This document shows, piece by piece, positions 2,630 to 9,608 of a stretch of 9,608 bases of DNA. Location of the stretch: the NCBI GenBank assembly GCA_023130215.1, contig JAGMAN010000025.1:1-9608 (forward strand), written 5' to 3'. Both the position numbers and the translations under genes were made by a program. Under the pieces are notes generated by a model. The model saw nothing but the letters and a program-made list of their open reading frames with translations. It was not told the origin of the DNA and made no database searches. How positions within the stretch are numbered: the first letter of the stretch is position 1; every line of letters starts with the position of its first letter. This DNA comes from a bacterium (GTDB lineage: Bacteria > NPL-UPA2 > JAGMAN01).

Positions 2630-3868
2630 ATGAATGTAGAGCAGATTATAGATAAAGTAGAAAAAACAGAGGTTCCTGAAGTCAAGAAGGTAGCCATCGC
2701 CTATTCGGGAGGGCTGGACTCATCGTTAGGGATTATCCTGCTGAGGAGAAAGTATAAGGCCGAGGAGATTTTCCCCATAACCATTGACGTTGGCCAGGGG
2801 GAGGAGGAACTGTGCGCCAGCCGGGAGAAGGCTAAGGCCCTGGGCATCGCCCAGACCATCATTGATGCTAAAGAAGAATTCACCGAGAAATGGCTGAGAA
2901 GGGCCATCCAGTCTAACTCTGACTATAATGGCTATCCGGTCTCCACCTCTATGACCCGCCAGTTAGTGGCCCGGGAAGTGGCCAAGCTGGCCCGTAGCCG
3001 TGGCTGTGATGCCATTATGGAAGGAAGTTCCGGAAAAGGCAACGACCAGTATCGGATGCATAATGTCTTTAAACTTTTTGCCCCTGAGCTGAAGGTGCTG
3101 GTGCCGGTGCGGGATTTTGATCTGACCCGGGGAGAGGAGGAGGAGTTATGCAAGGCCTGGAAAGTTCCGGTTACCGAAACCATCCGGGGCGGGGATGATA
3201 AGACCATGTGGTGCCGCTCCATTGCCAGCGGAGCAATTGACCTCAACCAGGAGATCCCCCGGGAGGTCTGGATGTGGTACTGCCCACCTCATGAAGCTCC
3301 GGATAAATCCACCCGCATTGAGCTGAAGTTCGCGGAGGGGATTCCAGTAGCATTGAATGGGAAAACTGGCTCCCTGGAAGAGATCCTTATGGAACTCAAT
3401 GTAGTGGGCGGAGCCAGTGGTATCGGAAAGATAGACATGTTCGAGGATGGCATCATGGACCTGAAGAGCCGGGAGATCTACGAAGCCCCAGCGGCCCACA
3501 TCATCCTCAAGCTCCATCGTGACCTGGAACAGTCCTGCCTGACCAAGGACGAGATTCAGTTCAAGAAAATGATAGATGCCAAATGGGCCTATCTCGTCTA
3601 TCATGGGATGTGGTTCCATCCTTTGAAGCAGGACTTAGATGCCTTTATCGCCGAAACGCAGAAGGTGGTCAACGGCACCTACGCGGTAGAACTATACAAG
3701 GGGAATATAGACATCGTCTCCAGGGAATCAGCTACTTCACTCTTTACTCCCGAGATCCGCAGTATCAAGAGCCGCGGGTTCAATCAAAGGATGTGTGCCG
3801 ATGCAACTCGGATCCGGGGGCTTCCATTCGAGATACTGGCCAAGCGGGAGTTCTCAAGGAGAAGTTGA
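2630..3868 (+). CDS. argG: Argininosuccinate synthase
   Basis: This enzyme joins citrulline and aspartate using ATP to give argininosuccinate, the penultimate step of arginine biosynthesis, in the cytosol. The 412-residue length is normal. The N-terminal PP-loop SGGLDSS (residues 26-32) binds ATP, followed by DVGQGEEE (53-60). EGSSGKGNDQYR (131-142) matches the family's GKGNDQ motif. SREIYEAPAAHIILKLHRDLE (280-300) is the conserved C-terminal-domain signature. The start is supported by GGGAGGAGG six nucleotides upstream. Residues differ from the commonest form: SGGLDSS where SGGLDTS is usual, and MWCRS (193-197) where a WGRS-type motif is usual, so this looks like a divergent subtype. No argH or other arginine gene is in view; the downstream permease begins 1 nt after the stop, so some read-through transcription into the next genes is likely. 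Confidence 0.95.
   Translation: MNVEQIIDKVEKTEVPEVKKVAIAYSGGLDSSLGIILLRRKYKAEEIFPITIDVGQGEEELCASREKAKALGIAQTIIDAKEEFTEKWLRRAIQSNSDYNGYPVSTSMTRQLVAREVAKLARSRGCDAIMEGSSGKGNDQYRMHNVFKLFAPELKVLVPVRDFDLTRGEEEELCKAWKVPVTETIRGGDDKTMWCRSIASGAIDLNQEIPREVWMWYCPPHEAPDKSTRIELKFAEGIPVALNGKTGSLEEILMELNVVGGASGIGKIDMFEDGIMDLKSREIYEAPAAHIILKLHRDLEQSCLTKDEIQFKKMIDAKWAYLVYHGMWFHPLKQDLDAFIAETQKVVNGTYAVELYKGNIDIVSRESATSLFTPEIRSIKSRGFNQRMCADATRIRGLPFEILAKREFSRRS
3856..3861 (+). promoter_or_regulatory. Ribosome binding site inside the argG 3' end, for a TTG-started permease
   Basis: AAGGAG lies within the last codons of argG, 8 nt before TTG at 3870. It supports TTG, rather than the far-upstream ATG at 3795 inside argG, as the permease start, and suggests translational coupling to argG. 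Confidence 0.65.
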
Positions 3869-3869
3869 T

Positions 3870-4835
3870 TTGTTGCAACGGATTGTGGCTATAGCTGTTA
3901 ATACGTTCACTGAATCAGTGCGTCAGCCTGTATACGGAATAATACTGTTTTCGTCTCTGGTCTTAATCTGTCTTAGCCCGGCCTTTTCTATGTTTAGCAT
4001 GACTGAAGACGTTAAGATCATGACTGATACAGGGCTGGCTACAATTTTTCTGGCAGGTCTGCTTCTGGCTGCCTTTTCCGCCTCCGGTGTAATATGGCGG
4101 GAAATAGAGTCTAAGACTGTCCTGACTGTAGTCACCAGGCCGGTGCGTACTCTGGAATTCATACTGGCAAAGTTTGGGGGGATTATCCTCTCTCTCGCCA
4201 CAGCCATGTATCTCCTTACCCTGGTTTTTATCCTTATGATCAGGATTGGTGTACCCGAAACAGCGAGTTTTGAGCTTGACCGGGCTGTCACCCTGGGGCT
4301 TTTGGGCAGTTTGCTTCTTTCGATTATTATCGGCGGATGTGCTAATTATTTTTTTAACAAGCATTTCGTTTCAACAACAATCACTGTTGCTGTTTGTCTG
4401 ATTACGGCAGCCTTTGCCGTACTTTGCTTTTTTGATAAAAATTTTGCTCTCCAGAGTTTCGGAGCTGATATAAACCGGGAGCTGGCCAAGACATGTATTC
4501 TCTTATGGTTTGCCGTGTTCATACTCGGTGCCGTGGCCACGGTTTTATCAACCAGATTAGGTATTGTCATGAATATGGTCATCTGTATGGTTATATTCAT
4601 CCTGGGGCTGCTTTCCGACCATATATTAGGTGAGCTGGCCCATACGAATGTTCTCGCCCGTATAGCCTATGCAGTCTTACCTAACCTGCAGTTTTTCTGG
4701 CTGGCAGATGCCCTTACTATGAAGAGCATAATTCCCTGGAGTTATGTGGTCAATGTGATTGGGTATGCTGTCTTCTACCAGGCGGCAATAATCTGCCTGG
4801 GCACTCTGGTATTCAGCAGCCGCGAACTTTCATAA
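3870..4835 (+). CDS. ABC-2-type transporter permease subunit
   Basis: This is a 321-residue polytopic membrane protein of the ABC-2 permease type (NosY-like, 'multi-copper enzyme maturation' permease group). With the TTG start it begins MLQRIVAIAVNTFTESVRQP, the usual short amphipathic N-terminus of this family. The family hallmark, REIESKTVLTVVTRPVRTLE (77-96), lies after the second helix and is thought to contact the ATPase partner. I count about eight hydrophobic segments, near residues 22-42, 54-74, 98-124, 141-160, 168-187, 207-227, 232-250 and 290-315, which exceeds the six-helix core. Such permeases need a separate ABC ATPase, and none is encoded in this window. It is the first gene of the plus-strand membrane cluster; the next ATG lies 11 nt past its stop. 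The substrate is unknown. Reading upstream to ATG at 3795 would overlap argG by 74 nt and is unlikely. Confidence 0.85.
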   Translation: MLQRIVAIAVNTFTESVRQPVYGIILFSSLVLICLSPAFSMFSMTEDVKIMTDTGLATIFLAGLLLAAFSASGVIWREIESKTVLTVVTRPVRTLEFILAKFGGIILSLATAMYLLTLVFILMIRIGVPETASFELDRAVTLGLLGSLLLSIIIGGCANYFFNKHFVSTTITVAVCLITAAFAVLCFFDKNFALQSFGADINRELAKTCILLWFAVFILGAVATVLSTRLGIVMNMVICMVIFILGLLSDHILGELAHTNVLARIAYAVLPNLQFFWLADALTMKSIIPWSYVVNVIGYAVFYQAAIICLGTLVFSSRELS

Positions 4836-4846
4836 TATAAGGTATT

Positions 4847-6733
4847 ATGTACGAAAAAAATAAAGCAGTTATAGCCGCAATTATTGGTATGGGCCTCCAG
4901 CTTATATTGGGCAGCTTAACACTCCTGGTGAGTGGCTGGAGCAGTTCCTCGGCCTGTCAGGCCATTGGTTTATTTAGTTTAGCCTCTTCTCTTATCTGGG
5001 GTCTGGCTTTTCTGCATACCAGACAAGAGTATCTGGCCGAAGAAGAAGAAAAAGACCTGGCTGAAACAGAAAAACAAGGAGCATTATTTGAGGGTCATGA
5101 CCTGGGTGCCATCAGTGCCCAGGCAGGTCTTAAGCGGCTGGAAAGATATTTTCTGCCTATAGCCGCAATATTAATTGCCGCCGGCTTTATTGGACTGACC
5201 ATTTACCTTTATACGGGCTGGTTAAAACATGGCACCCTTACCCCTTCTATCTTCCTTATGCCAGGAGCGCTTGTCTTTGGATTTGGTTCTATATTCCTCT
5301 TTTACGGTATGTATGTCAAAGGCATGACCTCTGTGCCAGGCTGGCGCTTGCTCCGGGCTGGTTCCAGTGTGATGCTGTTTGCTGCCTTTGCTTTTATGGC
5401 TATAGGTGTAAGTATTATCCTCTGCTCTTTAGGGATTCCCAATATTGAAAAATATCTGTCCTGGATTATAACTGCCATACTCGCCTTAACCGGAATAGAA
5501 CTTATTTTTAATATGTTGACTTCGTTTTTCGTGCCCCGTTTACCCGGCGTGGTAATCCTGCCGCCTTATTACTTACGCACTCTCGATGTTATTACCAGTC
5601 CGCGTGATATTTTAAAGACTGCGGCTGATATTGTAGATTACCAGTTTGGATTCCGGGTCTCTGAAACCTGGTTTTATAGCTTCTTAGAAAGGGCTATTAT
5701 GCCTCTTATTATTTTCTGGGCACTGATACTCTATGCCTTCACCTGTATAGTTGTTATCGGACCGGATGAACAGGCTGTAATGGAGCGTTTCGGAAATCCT
5801 ATGGAAAAGACTCTTGACTCCGGCCTGTATTTTAAACTGCCCTGGCCTGTTGATATCTGTTATATCTTCCCGGCTAAGAGGGTCCAGACTATTACTATGG
5901 GACACAAGGGAGAGATAGAAGACCAGCCGGCTATTTTGTGGACCCGGGAACATTATAAAGAAGAAGATGTCTTCTTGGTAGCCACACGGGAATCAACAGT
6001 CAGTCAGGATACAGGCAATAAAAACACAAACAGCAGCGAAGATAAATCCAAACGCGTACCAGTCAGTTTTGTCTCCTCGGCGATAAAACTTCACTACAGA
6101 GTTACTAATCTGCGTCAATACCTGTATGAAAAAACTAACCCCCATGATTTTATTAAGGATATTGCCTATAGAGAACTGGTAAAATTTATGGGTAGTATTG
6201 ATATATTAGACCTGCTTAAGGAAAAGCGGCTGGTTCTGGCAGAAGAACTTAGAGGGAAAATCCAGGAGGTGTTAAGCGAGGCGAACATCGGTGTGGAGAT
6301 ATTCTATCTGGGATTTGAGAGCGCTCATCCACCCGTAGCTGTAGGAGAGGCTTATGAATCCGTGATTAAGGCCCTTGAAGAAAAACACGCCTCTATACTT
6401 GACGCCCAGGCTTATGCTAATCAGACCTTACATCAGGCTCAGGCCGAGGCCTATAGTATAAATAGAGCCGCCCTGGCCTATAATAACCGCCGCACGAAGA
6501 TATCAGGAGCAGATGCCGATAGGTTCCGGATGCGGTTGGAGTCTTATAAGATAAGTCCTTCTGTCTTCCGTGCCCGCAACTGGCTGGGTACTATGGAAGA
6601 TAGTATGGAAAATATAAGAAAATATATCATCTCCTCTCAAGTGCAGACAAATTTAAATACAATATTAAACCTTGAAGACAAACTCACTTTTGGAGTTGAA
6701 GATATAGATTTGAATTCTACATTAGAAAAATAA
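4847..6733 (+). CDS. Polytopic membrane protein with C-terminal SPFH/band-7 (HflK-like) domain
   Basis: This 628-residue protein has an unusual architecture. Two helices (about 7-29 and 35-55), an acidic loop (61-75), four more helices (about 102-122, 133-155, 169-193, 203-227) and a seventh at 282-303 precede an SPFH domain. The domain opens with IGPDEQAVMERFGNP (304-318) and GLYFKLPWPVD (326-336), the HflK/HflC signature. It contains a hydrophilic insert (about 366-405) and continues with YRVTNLRQYLYEKTNP (417-432). The segment SAHPPVAVGEAYESVIKALEEK (492-513) and an Ala/Gln-rich helix (514-545) match the HflK C-terminal half. HflK proteins normally carry one N-terminal helix, so the six-helix extension is the odd part. 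The ribosome binding site is weak (AAGG, 4 nt from ATG). It probably scaffolds or modulates membrane complexes; the specific role is unknown. Confidence 0.85.
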   Translation: MYEKNKAVIAAIIGMGLQLILGSLTLLVSGWSSSSACQAIGLFSLASSLIWGLAFLHTRQEYLAEEEEKDLAETEKQGALFEGHDLGAISAQAGLKRLERYFLPIAAILIAAGFIGLTIYLYTGWLKHGTLTPSIFLMPGALVFGFGSIFLFYGMYVKGMTSVPGWRLLRAGSSVMLFAAFAFMAIGVSIILCSLGIPNIEKYLSWIITAILALTGIELIFNMLTSFFVPRLPGVVILPPYYLRTLDVITSPRDILKTAADIVDYQFGFRVSETWFYSFLERAIMPLIIFWALILYAFTCIVVIGPDEQAVMERFGNPMEKTLDSGLYFKLPWPVDICYIFPAKRVQTITMGHKGEIEDQPAILWTREHYKEEDVFLVATRESTVSQDTGNKNTNSSEDKSKRVPVSFVSSAIKLHYRVTNLRQYLYEKTNPHDFIKDIAYRELVKFMGSIDILDLLKEKRLVLAEELRGKIQEVLSEANIGVEIFYLGFESAHPPVAVGEAYESVIKALEEKHASILDAQAYANQTLHQAQAEAYSINRAALAYNNRRTKISGADADRFRMRLESYKISPSVFRARNWLGTMEDSMENIRKYIISSQVQTNLNTILNLEDKLTFGVEDIDLNSTLEK

Positions 6734-6744
6734 GGAGGATTGCC

Positions 6745-7665
6745 ATGAAACCCAAATTAATCCTTACTATAACTGTGGCTGTGCTCATAGTTATATGCTT
6801 TGGTCTGTTCCTGACCGGTTGGACCTTGAGGGTAACGGAATGTGCTGTTGTCCTGCGCTGGGAAAACCCCAGGTACGCCTTAGTAGGTACTACAAAAGGT
6901 GATGCCGGTCTCCACTGGAAACTGCCCTGGCCTATTGACAAGGTTGAGAAATTCGATGCCCGGGTTCATGTCTTCTCCACCAGGTTTGAAGAGACCTTTA
7001 CCCGGGACGGATATACCCTGGTAGCCACCGCCTCTACAGGCTGGCGTATAGCCGATCCTGTTCAGTTCCGGGAAAAAGTGGGGACAGTTGAAAAGGCCCA
7101 GGAACACCTGGTAGGACTGGTACGCACATACAAGAATGCGGTTATAGGCAAACATCCTCTCTCCCATCTTATTTCCACAGACCCGGGGACATTGCAATTC
7201 GATAATATAGAAAAAGAAATGCTGGCTAATGTCAGCCGTGAGGCTGAGGATAAATACGGCCTGACCGTTGAATTTACCAAGATAAAACAGATTGGATTGC
7301 CTCCGGCGGTAACAGAAGCGGTGTTTAACCGGATGAAAAAAGAACGGGAAAGAATCGCTGTAGATATCAGGGAAAGCGGCGAGAAAGAGGCTAAGAAAAT
7401 GCGGGCTGAAGCTGATGCCAAACGTGATGAAATCCTGGCTGTGGCCGAGGCAGAAGCCAGACTGCTTATGGGACAGGGCGACGCAGAAGCAGCCAAATAC
7501 TATGAAATCTTTGCTGATAACGAAGAACTGGCTATATTCTTGAGAAAACTCGATGCCCTAAAGAAGACCCTGGAAAAAAGAGCTACGGTTATTTTAACTA
7601 CTAAAGATGAACCTTACGACCTTTTTGAAAAAGGCTGGAAGGAAGAAACAAGCAATGACAAATAA
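6745..7665 (+). CDS. hflC: HflC-like SPFH/band-7 membrane protein
   Basis: This 306-residue protein has one N-terminal membrane anchor (about residues 5-26), an SPFH domain starting TECAVVLRWENP (31-42) with GLHWKLPWPIDKVEKFDAR (55-73), and a long charged helix. The stretch IGLPPAVTEAVFNRMKKERE (183-202) followed by an Ala/Glu/Arg-rich coiled coil and GQGDAEAAKYYEIF (243-256) closely follows the HflC pattern. In characterised bacteria HflC assembles with HflK into a large membrane cage around the FtsH protease and alters its activity. Length is slightly below E. coli HflC (334). AGGAGG at 6733-6738 overlaps the preceding stop, 6 nt before the ATG, so the three SPFH genes are coupled. No FtsH gene is present here. 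The family assignment is firm, while the symbol assumes HflC orthology rather than a locus-specific paralogue. Confidence 0.88.
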   Translation: MKPKLILTITVAVLIVICFGLFLTGWTLRVTECAVVLRWENPRYALVGTTKGDAGLHWKLPWPIDKVEKFDARVHVFSTRFEETFTRDGYTLVATASTGWRIADPVQFREKVGTVEKAQEHLVGLVRTYKNAVIGKHPLSHLISTDPGTLQFDNIEKEMLANVSREAEDKYGLTVEFTKIKQIGLPPAVTEAVFNRMKKERERIAVDIRESGEKEAKKMRAEADAKRDEILAVAEAEARLLMGQGDAEAAKYYEIFADNEELAIFLRKLDALKKTLEKRATVILTTKDEPYDLFEKGWKEETSNDK

Positions 7666-8827
7666 CGATAAAAATATCCATAGTTCTGCTTCCCAACAAA
7701 ATCCGGGTATGCAGTCCCTGAATGAAGCATTGAAAGTCTTCTTCTCTGTGCTCAAATGGGTTATGCTGGGGACTGTTGTCTTCTTTCTGTTTTCCGGTGT
7801 CCGTGTTATCCAGCAGCATCAGGTCGGGCTTATTCTTAGATTCGGAGAGATAACCGGCCCGCCTGGTAAACAGGTGCTGCAACCTGGCCTGCATTGGGCT
7901 CTGCCCCATCCTATACATGAGGTGGTAAAAATAGATGCCGGCCGGATAAGGTCCCTGACGGTAGAGAATTTCTGGTCACCAGAAAGTGTTTCGGATATTC
8001 TTAAAAGAGAATCCGGCTCTCCGCGAACAAGCGTTAAAACTGTTCTTAATCCGGGCGAAGACGGATACGCCCTGACCGGAGACATTAATATCCTTCACTT
8101 CATGTGGGAGGCCCGTTACAAACTCAAAGACCCGCTGCAGTATTTCCTTAATCTGGCCCAGCCCCTGGAAATAAACACCGCCAATAAACAAGACATAGCT
8201 GCAGTTGACCCCATTGAGGCTTCTGCCTCTAGTTTTGTTGAAACTGCCCTGGCCAATGCCGTACTCAGGCAGGCCGGCCAGATGAATATAGATGAGATTC
8301 TAAAACATAAACAAGGAGAATTTAAAAACAAGGTTGAAAAAACAGCCCAGCAGATTTTAGACCAAATGCGGACCGGTATTGCCTTGGAACGGCTTGACCT
8401 TATCCGGATTAGTGTGCCCATAGCTGTACAGGAATCATTCGATATGGTACTGCAAGCAGAGATGGAGAAAAGTGAAAAGGAAAACCAGGCCCAGGTCTAC
8501 CGTAATAAGGCAATACACCAGGCCGAAGGTGACAGTGCCCGGATCCTGGCTGAGGCCAGGGTATATAAAAAGAAGGTTATCTCATCTGCAGAGGCTGATG
8601 CCGGTTATATAAAGAAACTTTTGGAAAGATACCCTTCGGGTAAAGATACAGAAAAACTGGATGTATACCTAAGGCAATATCACATTGAGACATTAGACCA
8701 GGTACTTTCTAAGATAAAGAGTAAATACATTGTGCGCACTGATGAATCTCAAGAAGGCAAGCTCTGGATAATGCTGGGTAAAGACCCCAAAGATACAGCC
8801 GTAGGCAGTACTGCTAACCGTAGGTAG
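7655..8827 (+). CDS. hflK: HflK-like SPFH/band-7 membrane protein
   Basis: With ATG at 7655 the product has 390 residues: a polar N-terminus, one membrane helix (about 29-49), then QQHQVGLILRFGEI (53-66) and GLHWALPHPIHEVVKIDAG (78-96), the start of an HflK-type SPFH domain. YALTGDINILHFMWEARYKL (138-157) matches the HflK strand before the helical part. Residues about 170-195 form an insert relative to E. coli HflK. The C-terminal half is a long coiled coil containing EGDSARILAEARVYKKKVI (291-309) and a closing YHIETLDQVLSKIKSKYIV (342-360), a strong HflK match. It would pair with the preceding HflC-like protein. ATG 7655 has AGGAAG 9 nt upstream and overlaps the hflC stop by 11 nt; an upstream ATG at 7607 would overlap by 59 nt and lacks support. 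The C-terminal tail is encoded by repeat-like DNA. Confidence 0.88.
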   Translation: MTNNDKNIHSSASQQNPGMQSLNEALKVFFSVLKWVMLGTVVFFLFSGVRVIQQHQVGLILRFGEITGPPGKQVLQPGLHWALPHPIHEVVKIDAGRIRSLTVENFWSPESVSDILKRESGSPRTSVKTVLNPGEDGYALTGDINILHFMWEARYKLKDPLQYFLNLAQPLEINTANKQDIAAVDPIEASASSFVETALANAVLRQAGQMNIDEILKHKQGEFKNKVEKTAQQILDQMRTGIALERLDLIRISVPIAVQESFDMVLQAEMEKSEKENQAQVYRNKAIHQAEGDSARILAEARVYKKKVISSAEADAGYIKKLLERYPSGKDTEKLDVYLRQYHIETLDQVLSKIKSKYIVRTDESQEGKLWIMLGKDPKDTAVGSTANRR

Positions 8828-8851
8828 CACTGCTTCACCGTGCTTCACCGT
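8812..8851 (+). repeat. Short tandem repeat at the hflK / ATPase junction
   Basis: TGCTTCACCG occurs twice back to back (8831-8840 and 8841-8850), followed by T. A degenerate copy, TGCTAACCGT, lies at 8812-8821, inside the last codons of the HflK-like gene. The pattern suggests replication slippage near the stop codon. The repeats lie upstream of the ATPase ribosome binding site and make no obvious hairpin. Confidence 0.7.
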
Positions 8852-8869
8852 AAGGAAGGGAATTAATAT

Positions 8870-9608
8870 ATGCATGGTCATGTGCACCATCTTGGAGAAA
8901 AGAAACTTATAGGTTTCTGGCTTCTGGGTTCATTCATAGGGGCTATTTTTATTGCTAATTCATATATTTTAAAGTATGCCCTTAAACAGGGTGACTCTGT
9001 AGCCGGAATATGTGCGTTTATAGGCGCCCTTATCCTGGGCCTGCCGGTAGTCATCCGGGCTATCAAAGATTTAGTGCGCGGCGAGCTCCATATGAACGAA
9101 CTGGCAGCTATTGCTGTCCTGGCCTGTTTTGCCCGGGGAGATTACACCACTGCAGGGGTAGTGTCCTTCCTGGTTCTCGTCGGTGACATTATAGAACACA
9201 GGACAGCTATCGGGGTTCATGAATCTATTGAAACGCTCCTGAAGCTCGTGCCTCAAAAGGCCAGACTTATTGAAGACGGCCGGGAAAGAGAGATAGAAGC
9301 TTCCTCTCTCAAGCCCGGCCAAACAATAAGGATTCGGCCCGGAGAAAATGTGCCTGCCGACGGTACGATAGAAGAAGGGACATCAGCCCTTAACGAAGCC
9401 ACTATTACCGGTGAATCATTGCCCGCCGACAAAGGTGTGGGCCAGGCAGTGTTTGCCGGCACCTTAAATCTTACCGGAGCCATAAAGGTCAAGGTCACAA
9501 AAATAGGTGAGGATACTACCCTGGGCCGGGTACGGCACCTGATAAAAGACGCTGAAGCAACCCGTATACCTATAATGACGGTCATTGACAGATATATGAG
9601 CTGGTACA
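8870..9608 (+). CDS. P1B-type heavy-metal-transporting ATPase, 5' part
   Basis: The reading frame is open to the window end (246 residues, incomplete). P1B ATPases move transition metals across the cytoplasmic membrane using ATP. Visible are a short His-rich start (MHGHVHHLGEKK), helices near 13-30 and 43-62, ELHMNELAAIAVLA (72-85) leading into the next helix pair, and GDIIEHRTAIGVHESIETLL (105-124), typical of the P1B subfamily. The actuator domain follows, with RPGENVPADG (156-165) and the dephosphorylation motif TGES (180-183). The cysteine/metal motif of helix 6, the DKTGT phosphorylation site and the nucleotide domain lie beyond the window, so the metal (Zn, Cd, Co, Cu or other) cannot be assigned. 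There is no N-terminal HMA CxxC domain; the His cluster may stand in for it. AAGGAAGGG (8852-8860) is placed 9 nt before ATG. Confidence 0.9.
   Translation, partial: MHGHVHHLGEKKLIGFWLLGSFIGAIFIANSYILKYALKQGDSVAGICAFIGALILGLPVVIRAIKDLVRGELHMNELAAIAVLACFARGDYTTAGVVSFLVLVGDIIEHRTAIGVHESIETLLKLVPQKARLIEDGREREIEASSLKPGQTIRIRPGENVPADGTIEEGTSALNEATITGESLPADKGVGQAVFAGTLNLTGAIKVKVTKIGEDTTLGRVRHLIKDAEATRIPIMTVIDRYMSWY

Follow-up and report, generated by a model that had tools for sequence, protein, structure and literature searches.

SPFH assemblies and the locus under study

The SPFH proteins HflK and HflC of Escherichia coli form a closed cage over the membrane, and this HflKC assembly encloses FtsH. 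Structures of HflKC, stomatin, prohibitin and flotillin have by now been solved. A survey of prokaryotic SPFH subfamilies by Hinderhofer et al. in 2009 reportedly placed HflK/HflC in its SPFH3 group. This survey covers SPFH families and operons, and a term search of its text gave no mention of cation, ATPase or transporter (PMC2636767). Here, we describe the front of a conserved operon with three SPFH genes on contig JAGMAN010000025.1 from a bacterium of the NPL-UPA2 lineage, a stretch of exactly 9608 bases which is referred to as the window, makes up an entire contig (C55) and belongs to a genome of 1.0 Mb in 136 contigs; in the labels used below, G stands for a compared genome, L for a locus stretch and C for a contig. 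We consider it probable that this operon encodes a machine for metal transport with an SPFH cage as its framework, with a P1B-type heavy-metal ATPase enclosed in or recruited to the cage and Zn or Cu as the probable metal.

By published annotation, three SPFH genes and a P1B ATPase gene in one locus, as in the window, are also present in the hmtA locus of Pseudomonas aeruginosa (PA2434–PA2439), which encodes the P1B ATPase HmtA along with two HflC-family genes and one HflK-family gene (PMC4542158). In contrast to the window set, an extra gene, PA2436, lies in between, and ABC-2 permeases, an ABC ATPase and a TPR protein are not mentioned. Genes PA2439–PA2434 are induced 6- to 14-fold in a znuA mutant, with a weak Zur box predicted (PMC4542158), the PA2439 promoter is bound by Zur with zinc present (PMC8531726), the encoded proteins are upregulated under zinc depletion (PMC11761036) and HmtA has been described as a Zn/Cu importer (PMC8456098). 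A 2026 study named the three SPFH proteins PaFlo5–7 and reported a patchy distribution suggesting horizontal transfer (PMC13086221); a term search of this text found no mention of P-type ATPases. The component families are already known, and the grouping of three SPFH proteins with a P1B ATPase is partly documented as the hmtA locus. No description of three features reported below was found in the open-access literature searched: the eight-gene set, the transporter exchange and the cation diffusion facilitator (CDF) fold that the polytopic SPFH protein contains.

Recurrence of the operon across phyla

In the window, genes for an ABC-2 type permease (perm1), a polytopic SPFH protein, an HflC-like protein, an HflK-like protein and a P1B ATPase follow each other on the plus strand (Table 1). 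The order and spacing that a preliminary description of this DNA had claimed are borne out: the first three genes are separated by 11 nt each, hflC and hflK overlap, and 42 nt precede the P1B gene. The same five-gene order is found in two genomes of the window's phylum (G006, G008) and in G385. Beyond the P1B gene, G006 and G008 go on to encode an ABC ATPase, another ABC-2 permease and, as recognised by profile, a TPR protein, so that the ABC ATPase predicted as missing from the window is found downstream of P1B in relatives. A scan of genome contigs with the polytopic-SPFH alignment identified 80 named loci, mostly from Planctomycetota, Verrucomicrobiota and Lentisphaerae, but also from Kiritimatiellota and others, with a recurring order, by profile annotation, of permease, polytopic SPFH protein, HflC, HflK, P1B ATPase, ABC ATPase, second permease and TPR protein. 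All eight genes are present in two genomes of other phyla (G235, G258) and a four-gene core of the three SPFH genes and the P1B gene in G280; a scan of viral contigs with the polytopic SPFH protein gave no match. Prevalence is patchy, with the set in 7/7 genomes of the phylum of G385, 4/44 of that of G235 and 3/9 of the window's own.

Counting only loci with enough sequence present, the polytopic SPFH gene is accompanied by hflC in 78/78 and by hflK in 70/70 related loci. In 56 of 61 related loci, the gene right after hflK is that for the P1B ATPase, versus none of 21 ordinary hflKC loci (Fisher p 4e-15, to be taken as a guide only, as the loci share kinship); two of the five exceptions (L162, L168) carry the P1B gene upstream of the permease. 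Neither a P1B ATPase nor an ABC-2 permease was encoded in the flanking sequence of the 21 ordinary hflK-hflC loci, of which 20 derive from other genomes and one from the window genome. The first permease gene adjoins the polytopic SPFH gene in 60/72 related loci and is divergent in 18 of these 60. Several Lentisphaeria keep the SPFH, P1B and ABC ATPase genes, with recognisable permeases and the TPR gene not seen. The ABC-2/TPR half of the set is lineage-dependent, and it is absent from proteobacterial forms. The TPR protein, for which only generic TPR matches were obtained by fold, was not found in the window's own assembly. Six loci of the window's phylum (L236–L241, from G001–G005 and G007) harbour a shorter TPR relative in open frames of 230–282 aa, with no window-type operon found.

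In proteobacteria, the core order of long HflK, HflC, SPFH protein and P1B ATPase is located on plasmids of Paraburkholderia sprentiae, Burkholderia ubonensis, Rhizobium tumorigenes, R. lusitanum and Klebsiella aerogenes. Since the plasmids of K. aerogenes and B. ubonensis (L233, L234) are typed as conjugative and carry the core near transposase genes, the core is mobile. The Paraburkholderia copy has genes for metal ABC transport and PCu(A)C in its vicinity. A Pseudomonas copy of the operon was sought among plasmids and not found.

A CDF-derived membrane domain fused to HflK

The polytopic SPFH protein, which contains a Band_7 domain at residues 303–523 and matches the hflK profile TIGR01933 with E 3e-43, was modelled with AlphaFold2 from 63 relatives (mean predicted local distance difference test score, pLDDT, 84.5). 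In the model, a six-helix membrane bundle is followed by a linker, one anchor helix and the SPFH domain; the seven helices proposed from the sequence are consequently six of the bundle plus the anchor. Residues 1–232 align with the zinc transporter YiiP (8f6k_B; VIA-align Z 18.9, 2.8 Å over 200 residues), and human ZnT proteins likewise match this region in a comparison with solved structures. From approximately residue 283 onwards, the protein matches HflK (profile comparison with 7vhp, E 1e-45) and combines the SPFH fold, anchor helix and long coiled helix of HflK chains, which are its best Foldseek matches (7vhq_E, E 9e-14). The third, polytopic SPFH member of the preliminary description is therefore real, with its identity refined to an HflK that carries the fold of a CDF zinc transporter in the same chain.

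On the profile level, the N-terminal domain is related to the CDF domains of other SPFH fusions with hhalign E 5e-15, whereas E was at least 0.08 for four unrelated membrane families used as controls, and E. coli FieF plus ZitB, when compared directly, reached only E 0.002. For the proteobacterial N-terminal domain, the sequence link to CDF is weak in direct comparison (E 0.003) and stands only by way of the window-type family (E 2e-11). Homology between the window domain and the ArsP/SO_0444 fold was rejected upon profile comparison (E 0.33).

The metal site of CDF proteins, HxxxD on helices 2 and 5, is replaced in the window protein by F43, S47, S174 and F178, positions at which transporting CDF relatives carry H, D, H and D. 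The site is lost in 63/63 relatives, none of which keeps three of the four positions. Residues 1–232 thus represent a membrane domain that derives from a CDF but lacks its metal site, and not a working CDF: the membrane fold is common to both, but the window protein differs from YiiP/FieF and ZnT in that it has neither the metal site nor the CDF cytoplasmic domain and runs on into SPFH.

Relation to ordinary HflK-HflC and FtsH

The HflC-like protein (TIGR01932 hflC, E 3e-35) is 53% identical to the product of the same-position gene in G006 and G008, and the third SPFH gene encodes an HflK-like protein with a TIGR01933 match (E 6e-38) under the cut-off. As all three miss the curated cut-offs (148.2 and 130.8 versus 159.4 bits for HflK, 121.5 versus 134.4 bits for HflC), the window SPFH proteins are, by score, relatives just outside the curated HflK/HflC equivalogs. 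Two of them and the C-terminal part of the third resemble E. coli HflK-HflC by profile and fold; unlike E. coli, the window encodes three subunits, of which one bears a CDF domain of six helices, and has no hfq, hflX or ftsH neighbour, with metal transporters found instead. The window genome encodes FtsH on C114 and an ordinary hflK-hflC pair on C124; the earlier statement that the set comes without FtsH is correct for the cluster, but not for the genome, so the set may still be linked to FtsH. Due to the separate ordinary pair, the window set is an extra one. In a compared genome, one strand carries in a row an hflK-hflC pair, a gene for a membrane protein of 235 aa and a gene for a P1B ATPase of 902 aa that contains three HMA domains (L044, G003:C68:24000-38000).

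Different transporters in the three-SPFH set

In 13 loci of other phyla (L041, L042, L075–L085), a CDF-HflK fusion is followed by HflC and HflK, the CDF part having been tested with PF01545 on seven of the 13; a further CDF-SPFH fusion, L086, stands alone. Here, the HxxxD/HxxxD site is intact in 12/12 aligned fusions. Five loci instead have an SO_0444 family Cu/Zn efflux transporter joined to the HflK-like subunit (NF033936, ArsP_1 fold; 5/5 above the curated cut-off), a family which is not present in the window and which, as the profile comparison above showed, is unrelated to the window domain. A P1B gene is absent beside 18/18 of the fused three-gene sets and present in 8/8 window-type loci outside the Planctomycetes–Verrucomicrobia–Chlamydiae (PVC) group. 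Each of these sets thus comes with a Zn/Cu-type transporter, either fused or as a separate P1B ATPase, and this complementarity gives the strongest hint at function.

A genome of the same order as the window genome has a three-SPFH set closest to the CDF-fusion class, which is cut at a contig end (L040, G003:C24:1-14508). Behind this set lie genes for two MinD-like ATPases with 4Fe-4S motifs, and FeoB is encoded further along the contig, another metal context.

The P1B ATPase

The window P1B fragment is recognised by PF00122 (E 3e-36), with the heavy-metal P-type ATPase model TIGR01525 ranking first among NCBIfam; it starts with a His-rich sequence (MHGHVHHLGEKK) and is 53% identical to the complete gene of G008. 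The P1B gene of the preliminary description is thus present but cut by the contig end, leaving the CPx and DKTGT motifs outside the window, and neither the remainder of the gene nor a second P1B copy was found in the window's own assembly. Complete relatives carry DKTGT. The sixth-helix motif of operon P1Bs is mostly CPC, with SCPT in G008 and a few cases of CPT, CPS, CPG and VPA, and many of them have His-rich N-termini. In a fast maximum-likelihood tree, the operon P1Bs, those of proteobacteria among them, group in one clade (support 0.999) to the exclusion of the sampled background P1Bs; the only seeming outlier, L225, turned out to be the G006 operon gene. ZntA is nearer to this clade than CopA, and the Cd/Zn model TIGR01512 outscores the Cu model TIGR01511 on full-length operon P1Bs. 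The operon P1Bs are therefore on the ZntA side of the tree, but differ from ZntA/HmtA-type ATPases as a separate SPFH-linked clade usually with CPC and a His-rich N-terminus. VPA in place of CPC, found in operon P1Bs of gut-type Lentisphaeria (L130, L137, L149), suggests, as far as the motif tells, changed or lost metal binding.

Proposed function and alternative explanations

We infer that the three SPFH subunits, the CDF-bearing HflK, HflC and HflK, would assemble on the membrane like the HflK/HflC cage and enclose or recruit the dedicated P1B ATPase, with the site-less CDF domain as a membrane floor or docking piece which would make this floor larger than that of HflKC. The transport itself would fall to the P1B pump, with Zn(II) or Cu as the likeliest substrate. 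Elsewhere, an active CDF or SO_0444-type transporter fused in the same place would take on this task, as interchangeable engines in one housing. In the window's phylum and its planctomycete and verrucomicrobial relatives, an ABC transporter of two ABC-2 permeases and an ATPase as well as a membrane-anchored TPR protein may have been added to the machine. The preliminary description had proposed a dedicated membrane-microdomain machine, perhaps for metal efflux or for quality control of metal-handling membrane proteins. A dedicated SPFH assembly tied to metal transport is well supported, but efflux is not established; as zinc starvation induces the hmtA locus and HmtA is reported to be a Zn/Cu importer, import under starvation is as likely as efflux.

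Several observations weigh against a metal-transport machine on an SPFH cage. The hmtA locus would be its characterised counterpart by gene content of the published annotation and not by sequence, zinc addition gave no hmtA response in a transcription study (PMC8531726) and deletion of paFlo5-7 in P. aeruginosa had only small effects (PMC13086221). A Fur/Zur family regulator was not found in the window genome, which is approximately 90% complete, so that Zur regulation is unlikely there, and among the Zur-like boxes sought upstream of proteobacterial operons none scored above shuffles. The ABC-2 part and the TPR protein have no known metal role. Furthermore, the window P1B is cut before its metal motif and this motif is variable in relatives, so the metal may differ between lineages.

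Quality control would be an alternative task, with an HflKC-like cage steering FtsH to spare or degrade the neighbouring P1B ATPase and ABC transporter, so that metal comes in via the substrate alone. The enclosure of FtsH by E. coli HflKC speaks for it, as do the structures 7wi3 and 9cz2, which are among the best structural matches, and the FtsH gene on C114; however, FtsH is absent from the cluster in every locus seen, the genome keeps its separate ordinary hflKC pair, and transporter domains fused directly to the SPFH subunit in two other classes point to a built-in part rather than a passing substrate, which makes this explanation unlikely. Still less do we expect a flotillin-like microdomain scaffold, in which SPFH proteins concentrate unrelated transporters such as P1B and ABC-2 in an ordered lipid patch and the CDF fold is a leftover anchor. 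The loss of the CDF metal site in all relatives and the ABC-2 and TPR genes without obvious metal role would fit such a patch, but gene order and P1B subfamily are conserved across phyla, and the mutual replacement of P1B and fused transporter is not required of a general scaffold.

An accidental grouping, in which the genes are neighbours by coincidence or because one region was inherited as a whole, was the explanation under which the genes should not recur together in other lineages. The related loci, fetched by similarity to one gene, are indeed not independent; yet the order is shared by distant phyla, it returns on plasmids of three proteobacterial classes and it is never seen at ordinary hflKC loci, so that this explanation is already contradicted and is given next to no weight.

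Beyond the metal-transport machine proposed for the window, we tentatively suggest that SPFH cages could be a general housing class for metal transporters, made of three subunits with an exchangeable engine, which would provide a closed membrane chamber for the inward or outward pumping of Zn/Cu and be joined by an ABC transporter in several phyla. If this is true, a large group of bacterial SPFH proteins gains a definite job. In this widespread three-SPFH operon, the one part that varies is in every case a metal transporter, whether fused or adjacent. This suggests a specific and testable task, which would also account for the HflK/HflC-like genes in the zinc-starvation hmtA locus, noted without explanation in the papers cited.

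Gene layout of the window

Table 1. Features of the SPFH operon in the window (aa, amino acids; TM, transmembrane; ORF, open reading frame)
Feature	Position	Strand	Basis and remarks
perm1, ABC-2 type permease, ~321 aa	3870..4835	+	First gene of the conserved set; TTG start at 3870
Polytopic SPFH protein, 628 aa, CDF-like membrane domain and HflK-type SPFH	4847..6733	+	Band_7, TIGR01933, AlphaFold2 model, PDB comparison
CDF (YiiP/ZnT) fold, residues 1-232, six helices, metal site lost	4847..5542	+	Structure alignment, hhalign
HflK-like part, residues 275-628: anchor helix, SPFH domain, long helix	5669..6733	+	Foldseek, profile match
HflC-like protein, 306 aa, one N-terminal TM helix	6745..7665	+	TIGR01932
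HflK-like protein	7655..8827 (ORF opens 7607)	+	TIGR01933
P1B-type heavy-metal ATPase, first 246 residues of ~630 aa, open at contig end	8870..9608	+	PF00122, TIGR01525

The TTG start of perm1 is preceded by AAGGAG 8 nt upstream. The window permease scores under the Pfam cut-off (PF12730, 18.3 bits), and a 45% identical homologue (L038:11245-12201) clears PF12679 (35.8 versus a cut-off of 27.2). For the HflK-like gene, the ATG at 7655, with GGAAGGAA upstream, is a likelier start than 7607 and gives an overlap of 11 nt with hflC. The five genes are close-packed as described before, but the run starts one gene earlier, as argG (2630-3870 region) ends at 3868, 1 nt ahead of the permease start. 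The operon may therefore share a transcript with argG in the window genome; in relatives, argG is not at that position. On the minus strand, positions 470-745 encode a small two-helix protein with a Lys/Glu-rich tail and a weak match to MamI (NF040963, E 4e-8, 33 versus a cut-off of 80 bits), which is probably a chance likeness between short hydrophobic proteins.

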